Position numbers and translations under genes: made by a program. From Lineolata rhizophorae (taxonomy: Eukaryota > Ascomycota > Dothideomycetes > Lineolatales > Lineolataceae), in assembly GCA_010093515.1 (NCBI GenBank), contig MU001671.1, forward strand, positions 1,124,282-1,188,281: a stretch of 64,000 nucleotides of DNA. The letters run 5' to 3'. The notes beneath the pieces were generated by a model. It was not told the origin of the DNA and did not search any database. It worked only from the letters and a program-made list of their open reading frames with translations. Shown one piece after another: positions 2,918-62,214 of this stretch (its first letter is position 1; each line of letters opens with the position of its first letter).

Positions 2918-5900
2918 GACGCAGGGCACAAGCGCCCGATGTCTCTGGATCGGCAGTTTTTCATGCGAGAAATATAGGCTCCGTCACACTTGCGGTTGCC
3001 GCTGTGCAGGCACCTTGCCTGCAGGATCGTTTTAGTACAACGGTGTCGAAAGAAGGCTTCTTGCAGGATTTTGGATGCAGTGCAAGTGACGACGTGAGGC
3101 AAAATGTCTTTGAGTGTCGTAACGTAAAGTGCTTTTTCTTTGTGTCGGCGAATTTTGGTCAGTGGTAGTTTTTTAGACGACACGACCACCAAGGCGATCA
3201 GTGTACGCTTCTTTGGGGAGGGCTCTGGGAGCTAGACGCTCTATAGCGCATAAGAGTAGTACGCGTACAAATATATATCTTGCAGAACCTGTGTTATAAC
3301 ACTAGGAGGGATCGATATCTGAGCCTTCCCCTTTTTATTGACGAGATCTGGAATAACCCAAATCGAAGTCAAAATTAGGTTGTCGCGGCGCACCGAAGCA
3401 TGTCCGGAGAACAGTGGTACAGAAAACGCAAGAGAGCCAAGGAAAAGCCTCGAAGCTTGCACAAAAATAGCCGAGCGGTCCACGGGTGCATTATTGGATA
3501 TGGAAATTTGGGGTGCGGCTCACGACAGATAACCGGAGATTAGAGCCTGTTTGTGGGCGGGTAGATGAGTGGTGTGTGGATGTGCGCCATGGTTGTTTAT
3601 CAGCGGAGTGAGCCGCCACTAGAAAAGGGGCACGCGATAATCCCCATTTTGCGCCCGTACAGTTGCCCATCCAGTCAAGAGGAGATTGAGCCTTGCAAGC
3701 TGCAACCTCCTAAACGAAAGATGGATGGGAGAAACATTTGACTACCGACTGGCATCCAAGCAGGTCTGACATGCGTCGAGGAAACGGGTTTGCGCCACAG
3801 CGTGCATTCGCCCCAGGGTCTTTTCATTTTGGCAGGGTCCGACCTGATGAGCGCCAAGAAGATGATGATCTGCACGAGGCAGGCGAACGACTCGTAGTGG
3901 ATGGTTAAAGGAAATTTAGATAAAAGGGGCAAACGTGCGGAAGGACTACATAGTGGGCCACACCAGCTCAAAACGATTGCGGAAAATGACGATCTGTTTA
4001 TTGGTGATGAAAATCGTGGAGAAAGACGAGTGCGTCATACACCCGCGTGCTACTCGCACTTGTGTACATTCAAGGAGTCGTACGGAGGAGCCAAAAGTAA
4101 AGGAAACATGTTCGAACTTGAGATCGAGCCACTCGTCAATAGAGATCGGCCGGGCCATCTTGGCAACGACTTGTACCATTGTATTTTTACTGCGTACCTA
4201 TGCATGCACCCGCACCTGGGAGAGGTAAGGCGGCAAAATTTGGCGCGCCTCGTAAAGTGGTGGTGTGGTTGGGCGGTAGCCGCGGTCCCAGGCCCCGGCC
4301 CCATCAATTAGCTATGTATTCCTGCCGCTCTCGCGCGGCCAGGCAGGATAGGCCGCTGCATCGGAGGCTGGAGCTCACCCGGCCGCCGCCAGAATGATGG
4401 CGGAAAAGGACAAAAAAAAGCTGCGAAGGGGCCGCCGGCAGTCTGCAGATGGCATCCGGCGTTCCACCACATTTTGCCATTGGGTCGTGTTGGCGACGTC
4501 AATGGGCCTTACTGCGTGCTTCTTGGTGCTTGAAGGCCTGTGTTGGCCGCGAGGCAGTGACAATGGTGCCTCATGTCGCAGGCTCTCCGCACTTGCATGT
4601 GGAGGGAGCTTTGTACGGGACGGGTGGGTTGGTGTCTGCACTAAAGCAGTAGTGCGCGGCACCCGCAGCGAATGCAGCTTGGGCGATCCCCTGTTTGGTG
4701 GCGCGCGCGAAGACGCCATCCGAGATTGTCGTGGCGGGCCTGGGTGGTGGGGATCTCAAAGGGCAAGCCGAAACATGCCATTCCCGAACAGACAACGGGC
4801 CTCGGCCAGGGAGGGCGTATCAGGCCATGGGAAAAAGGAAAACAAGAAAATGGAAGGCCGGCGAAGAGCCCGTGGAATCAATTCCAGTTGCGCCCGGCAT
4901 AATGGCCGCGGCCGGGGAATCAGAAGGTTAGGCCCTCCTCGTGGGTCCCGGCGACCGGCTGTTGTTGTCTGGTGCGCTGAAAAGGCGGGTCCTTCCAGAC
5001 GCAGACAGTCTCACCCGGCCTCCTGCGGTCTGCAGCCGTTTAGCCAAGAGGTGCAGACGGCGCGGCGTGGCGTCGAGACGTGCTGGCGCGCAGCGACGAC
5101 TCGGCGGAATGGGTTGTGGAGGTGGTCAGTGGCGGGAAGCTCGGCCGCGCGGCGGCCTATAGCGCTGTTGGGACCAATTGCGCGCGGCCCGAGCGTTCAC
5201 GATGCAGGAAAGGGTCGATAGGGAAATTCCTGAGAGGGCGCGGCGCGGAGAACCGCACCCGGGGCAAGGGCCCGGGAGGGAGGGGGGAGGGGGCCGGGTC
5301 GGGAGCGAGAACCACGGGGCGAGGGCAGGTGCAATCGTCGCCCGCGGTACGGAGTACGGCACTGCGTGCGGGCGGGACCCGACGCCGAATCTCGATGTTC
5401 GCACGCTATACGCGCCGCCCGTGCCGGTGCTGGAGCCCTCCGCGCAACAGCGCAATTACAGTTAGCGGACGGAGCATGTACATTTTCTCGCCCGAGGCAG
5501 ACGGGCGCGGGAGCTGGGCAGGCCGGGTGGGTCGCTGGCGTGGATGGAGCCCGAGGGCGCGGCCGGGGGGGAAAGGACGGGGCTTGGCCTGCGAGAAGCT
5601 CGAGCACTGGCCAATGGAGGTGATATCGGGGCAGGGGCGCTATGCCCGGAGCGGGCGGCCGTCGCGTCGCCGGAGGCAGGGGGGCCCGCCCACAGCTTCC
5701 TCTGCGCCTCCCTTTTTCTCCCGCCGCGTCGCCGCCTGCCGTCCGTCTTCTGCTATCCTTCTTTGCTCCTGCCACAGCAACTGCCCAGGCCGACGAACCC
5801 TTCCCGCCGCGCCTCCCCGAGCCCGCACGGCAGAGCCACCGGCCTCCGAGCCTCTTCTTATTTCTGCCCTCGTTTGTCTTTTTCCTTCTTGACGTTCGCT

Positions 5901-6194
5901 CCAAGCATCTATTCGCAACCACACACAGCATTCCCATTCTCCCGCTGCACCAACGGCCACAAGCACGCTGCTTGCCGATCGAGCTTCCCCCGTGTCCGCG
6001 AGTCGTCAGCGGTTTATAATTCACTCCACGTATGTCTCACCGATGCTGCAACCTGAACCCTAGCCGACCGTCGTCCTCTTCCCCTCTTCTATTGGCGCCT
6101 CTTCCCTTCTTCCCGCTCCAACTCCGCTGACACCTCTCTTCCTCCCACCCACAGGTAGCCCATTTTACGCCCAGTTCGCGCTCCGCCGACAGCA
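2918..6194. other. Intergenic stretch and long ECM33 leader
   Basis: No conserved protein was recognised. Between about 4.2 and 5.7 kb the DNA is very GC-rich with overlapping open frames on all strands (up to 275 codons), the pattern of stop-poor non-coding DNA. From about 5.69 to 6.19 kb the plus strand becomes strongly pyrimidine-rich, as in promoters and leaders of highly expressed fungal genes. A TATA-like TTTATAAT lies at 6013-6020. A CCCACAG acceptor-like site near 6155 may close a leader intron. This region is best read as the regulatory region of the ECM33-like gene. Confidence 0.5.
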
Positions 6195-59843: not shown

Positions 59844-62214
59844 TCAAAGCTTCCCCAGCAAATCGTCCCTGCGTTTGCAGCTCTTCTTCTCCATCGATCT
59901 TGCCGCCCGCATTTTGTCCTGGTCTTGGAAGAACCACCCCTGCGCCTCTGAAACGAGCTGCTCCTGTCGCCGCGTTTCTAGCCCGCACTCCACGTTCAGT
60001 TGGCCCATGTATTTCACCTCAGCTTGTTTATCAACCTCGCGCCATCTTCGCGGGCTCAGATCCTCCGTCTCCGCTGGGTCCACCCAGTAAGGTATCTTAA
60101 GTCTAGGCGTCATGCGTTGCATCGTATGCGGTGGTACAGCTGAGTCGAACCGATATGAAGGCCCGCCTGACAGACCGGTCGAGCTACCGCCGCTGAATAT
60201 GGAAGAGAGGATTGGGATGATGAAGAGAAGGAGGAGAGGGAGGAGTGAGATGAATGAACTGAGCCCGGAATCTGCCGCCGCTTGGCCAGCAGCCGCCTGG
60301 GCATGTGGGTGCGGGCGGCGCCGCGGGTTCATGCCACCGAATTGGTGAACACGAATTCCCGGTCCGCCGCCGATGTTGAAGACGAAGCCGGGCCCCGTGT
60401 CGAACATGCCACCACCTGGAAAAAAGAAAAGTTAATTCTATTCTTGAGAGAGAGAAATCACCAGCGTTAGAAGAAGGATGCAGATATTAAGGAGAAAAAG
60501 CAGCATCAGCCAGTAGAAGAATCAAGCAAAGTAAGTAGACGTCTGTTAGTAGGAAAGTGTGCTTGGTATTTGTGCACTGAAGGGTCCAGAGAGAATTTCG
60601 GGGACTGCTTGGAGTGCCTCGAACGCTCTTGCCGATACGCCGGGTTATGCTCTACCTCATTTTTCCCAGGAAGTTTAGTCTGGGGCTTAGTTTCCCGGGT
60701 GGGCGTGTGGGCAGCCTTATGGCGCTTTACTTGTTCTTGAGACAGCCCAGCTGTAGTGCTATCACTTGTCCTTGCTGCCGTTGCTTCCGTAGACTTCTCA
60801 TGACGTTTCGTCTCTTCGCTCGCAAACTTAGCCCTGAAGGAGCATCCTTTCTCTGCAGTAGCAGCATTGGCATTGGCATTAGATGGCTGAGAAAACTCCG
60901 TATGACGGGAATGATACGATTTGTGGTTTTGAAAGTAGCCATGGCAGGGGTGGTGATCTGGGTGTTGATGGTGCCTTATTCGTTCGTAGTGTTGTCGTAG
61001 TTGTTCCTCATGTTTTTGGATTCGTTCATGGTGCTTTTTGTTTTCTTCGTGAAACTGTCGAATTTGTTCTTCCATTTGATCTTGGTGCTGCTCTTGAGAT
61101 TGATGCGCGTGCCTTGAGCGCTGATCCTTGTGGGCATGATGCTGATAGATCTTCTGCCATTGTTCATGGGCCTTGCGGGATTCCTCCCGCATTTCCGGCC
61201 AATGTCGAAGAGTATTGTCCATGGCCACAAAGTGGTAACACACATCCGGGAATTCTAGGTGTACATCTGAGTGATAATACGTATGTTGCGAACCCTCGGT
61301 CTTCATGAGCGGTGGAAAGAACTTGAAATACAAATCCTGAATTTGTGGTTGCTGATGGTACTGATGCTGCATGGATTGCTGCTGATAATGATACCGGCGC
61401 TGGTACTGATGCTGCTGGGATTGCTGCTGATACCGGTACCGGTGCTGGTACTGATGCTGATGCGAACGTAGAAATTGCTCACCGAAAGGACCCCCGAACC
61501 CGCCCATGCCGCCGCCGAAGAATTGACGGAACATTTCCTCGGGCGAGATCTCCTCCTCGAAAAAGGTCGCACCGGGTCCACCAGCCCGCGCTGACGGCCC
61601 GCCTGGTGACCGGGCAAAGCCGCTGAATGGTGACGCCCCAGCTCCTGCCGAGGCCGAACTGAATCTGTTGTCGGGGTCGCCGCCAAAGCGGTCAAATTTC
61701 GCCTTCTTGTCAGGATCGGAGAGGATTTGAAACGCTCGAGAAACCACTGGGAGAGGCGTTAGCTTGTGACGGTTGCTTTTAAAAACTTTTGCGCTCCTCC
61801 TCCCTCTGAAAATGAAGGGCTCTTAACGACCACGATGGAGGCTCGCAGACTTGTCACGCAGAACCTCCGGTTTGGGAGCGCAATCAAATTTCCCCAAATC
61901 CCCGTAACAAATATTGCAAGACCCAACCACTCACTTTTAAAAGCCTCATCCGCACCATCGTAGCCATTTTTATCCGGATGCGTCAACAAACTCAGCTTCC
62001 TGTATGCCTTCTTGATTTCCGTGTCCGTGACTGTCGTGCGCACTTCTTCGAGCCCTAGGATATCATAAAACGCTGTGGGCGAGCATCTGCGCACCCGAAT
62101 GACGGCTGACTTTTGCTCGGCCGTGTAGGCGCGTCCCTCCCTCCCGTCGTGATGTGCGCGATGGCGGGCTGAGGCCGACCCGTTGGTATCGGCGCCGCTC
62201 GCGCTAGCCGACAT
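59844..62214 (-). CDS. HLJ1: ER membrane J-protein, Hlj1/DNAJB12 type (DUF1977)
   Basis: Hsp40 co-chaperone of the ER membrane that recruits Hsp70 for ER-associated degradation. Exons on the minus strand: 62214-61935, 61746-61483 and 60415-59844, giving 371 residues. The J-domain starts at about residue 46 (FYDILGLEE), has the HPD motif in THPDKNG, and ends RAFQILSDPDKKAKFDRFGG. A Gly/Phe-rich segment (FFGGGMGGFGGPFG) joins through the intron to GGGMFDTGPGFVFNIGGG, the conserved family continuation, which supports the splice. Residues about 225-250 form one membrane segment (FISLLPLLLLFIIPILSSIF); the DUF1977 tail follows. The second intron, 1,067 nt, is extraordinarily long for this genome and carries an open frame continuous with exon 2 (separate entry). 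Divergent from the Aim19-like gene. Confidence 0.92.
60506..61482 (-). CDS. In-frame His/Gln-rich open frame inside the HLJ1 intron
   Basis: If the second HLJ1 intron is not removed, the reading frame of exon 2 runs on through 60506 without a stop, adding about 325 residues to the J-domain and Gly/Phe region for a total of 506, and the membrane segment and DUF1977 are lost. The added part is rich in His, Gln, Lys and Glu (YQRRYHYQQQS, EEQIRQFHEENKKHHERIQK, RHHQHPDHHPCHG), begins with 45-bp tandem repeats, and ends in a Lys/Ser/Thr-rich basic tail. The normal donor (GTGAGC) and acceptor (TTCCAG) are good, so splicing is expected as the default. Antisense frames here are also fairly open, because His/Gln/Glu/Lys-rich coding is stop-poor on both strands, so openness alone is not proof of translation. 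Confidence 0.45.
61357..61464 (-). repeat. 45-bp tandem repeats at the start of the HLJ1 intron
   Basis: Two full 45-bp units (61357-61401 and 61402-61446) and an 18-bp partial third. On the minus strand they encode Tyr/Gln/His-rich repeats. The unit length is a multiple of three, so gain or loss of units keeps the frame. They start only about 20 bases inside the intron donor. Confidence 0.8.

Follow-up and report, generated by a model that had tools for sequence, protein, structure and literature searches.

The window analysed here is a 64,000-nucleotide stretch of Lineolata rhizophorae DNA, in which a three-exon J-protein gene lies on the minus strand and neighbouring open frames have Pfam matches to Anp1, Ecm33 (below its cut-off), Nup133 and the mitochondrial resolvase Ydc2, a set that fits an ascomycete. 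Exon 1 of the J-protein gene (61935-62214) carries the start codon and the first part of the J domain, as identified by translation and the Pfam DnaJ profile, and is followed by a 188-nt intron (61747-61934) running from GTGAGT to CTAACGCCTCTCCCAG, with a CAG end. Once this intron is removed, the match to the DnaJ profile grows from 2-44 to 2-63 of its 63 positions. Exon 2 (61483-61746) encodes the end of the J domain and a G/F-type region and ends in phase 1. Intron 2 (60416-61482; GTGAGC...TTAACTTTTCTTTTTTCCAG) is 1,067 nt long, which is 2 modulo 3 (3n+2), and exon 3 (59844-60415) contains a Gly-rich junction, a membrane segment (SLLPLLLLFIIPILSSIF) evident from hydropathy, a DUF1977 domain (Pfam, E 1.3e-31) and the stop codon. 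The original prediction had the coordinates and frame of intron 2 right: its ends are canonical (GTGAGC...TTTTTTCCAG), and its removal creates the junction ...GGPFG-GGMFDTGPGF... and restores the DUF1977 frame. The intron/exon structure of the gene is thus supported by the fit of the domains, and splicing of intron 2 is to be expected since both donor and acceptor appear normal by eye. A 21-nt inverted repeat (81%) lies inside exon 3, with arms at 60051-60071 and 60247-60267 that are 175 nt apart.

Joining the three exons (62214-61935, 61746-61483 and 60415-59844) gives a product of 371 residues with a complete DnaJ domain (Pfam, 6.2e-20) and DUF1977 (4.9e-31). The HPD motif is present in the J domain as THPDKNG, and the best 19-residue hydropathy, 2.58, is found from residue 237, so that the order of elements is J domain, G/F-type region, hydrophobic segment and DUF1977. 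We take this layout to match that of HLJ1 and DNAJB12, and place HLJ1 in the DNAJB12/DNAJB14 group; in the PDB, the J domain of DNAJB12 ranks second among the matches (8.8e-16). With an HPD-bearing J domain, a hydrophobic segment and DUF1977 all present, the spliced product is, as judged from its sequence, a membrane J-protein of the HLJ1/DNAJB12 type, and its family membership would place it at the ER.

The frame entered from exon 2 is open for 977 nt of intron 2 (60506-61482), encoding 325 residues before a TGA at 60508-60506, and two more in-frame stops follow within the intron. As originally predicted, the unspliced frame therefore codes for a J-protein of 506 residues whose tail is rich in His and Gln (Q 13.5%, H 12.3%) and contains repeats, and it also holds many charged residues. 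The repeats include two 45-nt tandem units (61356-61445) that are 87% identical and code for QHRYRYQQQSQQHQY-like repeats. Their length is a multiple of three, and the six base differences between them, read by eye, fall mostly at replacement sites. The predicted loss of the membrane segment is likewise borne out, the best 19-residue hydropathy of the unspliced form being 0.64 against 2.58 in the spliced form. Past the stop, the end of the intron (60416-60505) contains the candidate branch-like sites CTAAC at 60470 and TTAAC at 60435, a pyrimidine tract and the terminal CAG. A poly(A) pattern search over 60300-60600 yielded a single loose variant, AATAGA at 60442. In intron 1, the frame of exon 1 is also open through almost the entire length, to a TAA at 61761-61759 near the acceptor (open reading frame 61759-62214), and both introns of this gene are thus open nearly to their ends.

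The claim that we defend is that most of intron 2 is, or recently was, coding sequence read in the exon 2 frame. The evidence comes from a period-3 test in which composition at the three codon positions, expressed as chi, is compared with that of shuffled sequence (dinucleotide or plain shuffles). The whole open frame gives a chi of 125.2 against 6.2±3.6 in dinucleotide shuffles, falling to 70.0 against 6.0 when the first 150 nt are left out, and the C-terminal 411 nt, which lie past the repeat block, still give 41.3 against 6.1±3.6. For comparison, 411 nt taken from the Nup133 gene score 34.7 and three presumed intergenic pieces of the same size score 5.1, 9.3 and 5.4. In four segments of about 200 nt outside the repeat block, the observed chi was reached by 1, 0, 0 and 9 of 2,000 shuffles. 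A scan along the gene shows the signal climbing at the donor, where the first 36 nt, repeat-like in sequence, score 25.4 (reached in 2 of 2,000 plain shuffles), and extending from 61480 to about 60626. In the final 117 nt of the frame (60509-60625, 39 codons) there is no period-3 signal (4.8 against 6.0; reached in 1,134 of 2,000 plain shuffles), and the 90 nt past the stop score 12.4 (120 of 2,000). Exons 2 and 3 of the same gene score only 11.7 and 17.0, and we therefore read the test as a measure of amino-acid bias more than of coding itself. Frames that are antisense to genes, out of frame with them or overlapping them also score high in the window, and a high chi thus marks coding DNA without always marking the right frame. 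Within the intron 2 block, however, the five other frames are interrupted, with 5 and 15 stops in the forward frames and 7, 31 and 14 in the reverse frames over the open stretch, and the one that is open is the frame that exon 2 enters. The intron 2 frame probably is, or recently was, protein-coding.

The codon usage of this frame is not like that of the genome's genes, as judged against nine neighbouring frames, of which six match a Pfam profile. Its GC3 is 0.50, compared with 0.63-0.82 in the neighbours and 0.65 and 0.67 in exons 2 and 3 of the same gene, and lies near the GC of three presumed intergenic pieces (0.47-0.48). Synonymous codon choice scores -0.10 per codon, meaning that plain base composition fits better than the neighbours' usage; among the nine neighbouring frames, seven exceed +0.1, one scores +0.03 and one is at about zero. 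The intron 2 frame is thus codon-unoptimised and perhaps young. Together with the replacement differences between the repeat units, GC3 and synonymous choice describe a bias at the protein level without codon adaptation, which suggests that the segment is young, weakly expressed or foreign. Like the missing period-3 signal in the last 117 nt, these features weigh against an exon that is already established.

A foreign origin would take the form of a coding fragment of another gene or of a mobile element, captured recently, lying on the right strand and in the right phase by luck, not yet decayed and always spliced out. The divergence in GC3 and codon usage from the neighbouring frames, and in GC3 from the flanking exons, is what this explanation would lead one to expect, as is the length of the intron. 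In nine filamentous ascomycetes, only 2-11% of introns fall in a column that we take to be those above 200 bp (PMC2397502), which makes 1,067 nt unusual for a fungus. The frame shows no visible decay, and a very recent arrival is compatible with this. A stop would be created by 152 of the 2,916 possible single changes, and in 1,000 simulations a neutral frame was still open in 59.7% of cases at 0.01 substitutions per site and in 37.6% at 0.02, but in only 9.3% at 0.05 and 0.9% at 0.1, the last figure telling against capture. The fragment would also need to have arrived on the required strand and in the required phase, which by arithmetic is about a 1 in 6 event, and the tail contains no Pfam domain. 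The window contains no convincing second copy (the best match elsewhere has E 0.78) and no inverted repeats border intron 2, the only pair enclosing it being 13 nt long and sited in exons 1 and 3; a mobile element within the intron was rejected on these two grounds. We regard capture as unlikely, while giving it real weight.

It is improbable, in our view, that the open frame is a product of chance and low complexity, with degenerate CAN-type repeats that are poor in stops and periodic by nature and were never coding. Such repeats do exist here, tandem arrays making up most of the first 150 nt of the frame, and the lack of signal in the last 117 nt would also sit well with this explanation. 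The region 60626-60919, on the other hand, is not CAN-like but rich in S/T/A/E/K, with just two tandem arrays, a short 6-nt one and a 9-nt one, scoring at least 30, and it is nevertheless periodic, with a chi of 43.1 against 5.9 that was reached in none of 2,000 plain shuffles. The original prediction had held that some 325 stop-free codons were very unlikely in random sequence, and simulation agrees: among 5,000 null introns generated from each of an order-1 and an order-2 model trained on the composition of intron 2 itself, not one left the fixed frame open, and a stop-free run of at least 324 codons in any frame turned up 0 and 2 times in 5,000, respectively. The order-2 pair is a point in favour of chance, although both nulls are generous because they were trained on the stop-poor intron itself; independent-codon arithmetic gives 2.4e-4. 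The accompanying worry that stop-poor, low-complexity sequence weakens the argument is answered outside the repeat block, where the period-3 signal persists, and continues to hold for the final 117 nt. Stop-free length as sole evidence was rejected, since the window contains presumably spurious frames of 282-336 codons. Of the 30 stretches in it that run for at least 200 codons without a stop, nine have a chi below 15, including some in GC-rich DNA that are 336, 289 and 282 codons long, and length alone can therefore mislead. At 4352-6036, GC-rich DNA carries three open frames that overlap one another on both strands; they are 279-289 codons long, have chi values of 4.6-7.5 and no period-3 signal, and are probable examples of such spurious long frames.

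The coding block could also serve as an in-frame insert in a longer membrane isoform, made by splicing from a weak donor close to the block's end to the same acceptor, which would leave a shorter last intron. Eight in-phase GTs lie inside intron 2 besides the donor, among them those at 60765, 60624 and 60540, which would leave minus-strand introns of 350, 209 and 125 nt, and the period-3 signal stops at about 60626, near the second of these. Judged by a loose donor pattern rather than a scored model, however, only the GT at 60765 (GTGATA) fits, and weakly; those at 60624 (GTTCGA) and 60540 (GTCTAC) do not, and a better-looking GTAAAG at 60730 is out of phase. An inserted isoform is decidedly improbable on this evidence. 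Least credible is an independent gene nested on the same strand and starting at one of the in-frame ATGs that occur in the translated tail, a very improbable arrangement given that the period-3 signal begins at the donor, ahead of the first such ATG, albeit in a part that is repeat block.

The tail encoded by intron 2 has no Pfam match at E<=10, and a PDB sequence search with exon 2 plus tail gave best E values of 0.18 and 0.35, with none better. Neither exon 3 nor the tail had a confirmed relative among viral, bacterial and archaeal contigs, a comparison that is uninformative for a fungal gene. Sis1-type or prion-like behaviour had been proposed for the tail on the basis of its composition; neither found support, and the C-terminal substrate-binding domain known from Sis1-like J-proteins is absent from the Pfam matches at E<=10. 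A single-sequence AlphaFold2 model of the tail has a mean pLDDT of 58.4, with 95 in its best 10-residue block, and places its predicted helices in the first half, with the end disordered. The longest covers residues 78-171 of the model (60968-61249, minus strand), which is weak evidence for a helix there, and further helices are predicted with low confidence at residues 2-41 and 46-54. Rfam returned 0 matches at gathering scores over the whole window, and intron 2 thus contains no RNA element known to that collection.

Taking these observations together, intron 2 may be a dual-use segment. When spliced out, it would leave the ordinary HLJ1/DNAJB12-type membrane J-protein with its DUF1977. When kept, translation would continue from exon 2 through 325 hydrophilic, His/Gln-rich and partly helical codons to the stop, giving a 506-residue product with a J domain but with neither membrane anchor nor DUF1977, for which a soluble J-protein is the plain prediction. 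Leaving the intron in would be the simplest route to such a form. The two C-termini are probably mutually exclusive unless the GT at 60765, 60624 or 60540 is used, given that only the first of these fits the donor pattern among the eight in phase. For the soluble form to be made, the unspliced mRNA would have to exit the nucleus, evade decay and be translated, after which the protein might bring Hsp70 to other places or clients. With at least 90 + 572 nt following its stop, this mRNA is a possible target of nonsense-mediated decay, which would leave the soluble form rare unless decay were evaded or an early poly(A) site used. The original prediction of a membrane-to-soluble switch gains from the membrane-free frame and from the coding signature between 61480 and 60626, and loses from the low GC3 and the negative codon score; a regulated choice between two locations by retention of intron 2 is a plausible hypothesis. 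We consider the two-isoform reading as a whole, a membrane J-protein if spliced and a soluble one if intron 2 is kept, to be a serious possibility that falls somewhat short of probable. The fuller proposal, that a gene of the HLJ1/DNAJB12 kind yields either a membrane or a soluble J-protein by way of a helical His/Gln tail lying wholly within a 1-kb intron, a young exon that is still an intron, is put forward more tentatively. Were it true, a single splicing decision would give Hsp70 a bound or a free partner from one gene in a fungus, and a long coding segment would have been born within an intron, its reading frame and amino-acid bias already present and its codon usage unadapted. Such a segment would open the question of how new exons originate to direct test in sister species.

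In fungi, intron retention is the dominant splice variant (PMC2397502). In Coccidioides immitis, retained introns have 23% fewer in-frame stops than constitutive ones, and in this species and Cryptococcus neoformans they show weak conservation at the amino-acid level as well as fewer in-frame stops (PMC2397502). The dN/dS test in that study concerned retained introns of up to 100 and 150 bp, as against the 977 nt open here, and McGuire et al. conclude that the majority of splice variants are unlikely to yield functional proteins (PMC2397502). In Yarrowia, a working decay pathway degrades intron-retaining transcripts and stop-free introns are under-represented, above all those of length 3n, whereas intron 2 here is 3n+2 (PMC2911113). 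Among the open-access papers listed as matches, titles and abstract openings revealed none that we recognised as describing an HLJ1-type J-protein, or any fungal one, with an isoform made by intron retention.

The nearest comparisons are with chaperones whose splice forms differ in location. DNAJB12 and DNAJB14 are ER transmembrane co-chaperones (PMC3986390), and the spliced product described here resembles them and HLJ1 in having a J domain, hydrophobic segment and DUF1977 in the same order; the unspliced form differs in lacking the last two and in its His/Gln-rich tail. In GRP78va, intron retention converts an ER chaperone to a cytosolic form (PMC2729930), but this is an Hsp70, the intron is intron 1, and it is the ER signal peptide that is lost, with an alternative translation start. 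The human splice forms DNAJB6a and DNAJB6b differ in location, nucleus or cytosol (PMC4086201); they belong to another J-protein, and no membrane form is described for them there. Human DNAJB2 has two splice forms, HSJ1a and HSJ1b, which are cytosolic and tethered to the ER on its cytosolic side, respectively (PMC4086201). As predicted here, two splice forms of one J-protein gene differ in location; in that account HSJ1b is anchored by geranylgeranylation rather than by a membrane segment, and the human isoforms are demonstrated where those of the present gene are predicted from sequence. The class of mechanism is a known one, and what is new is the gene and its tail.
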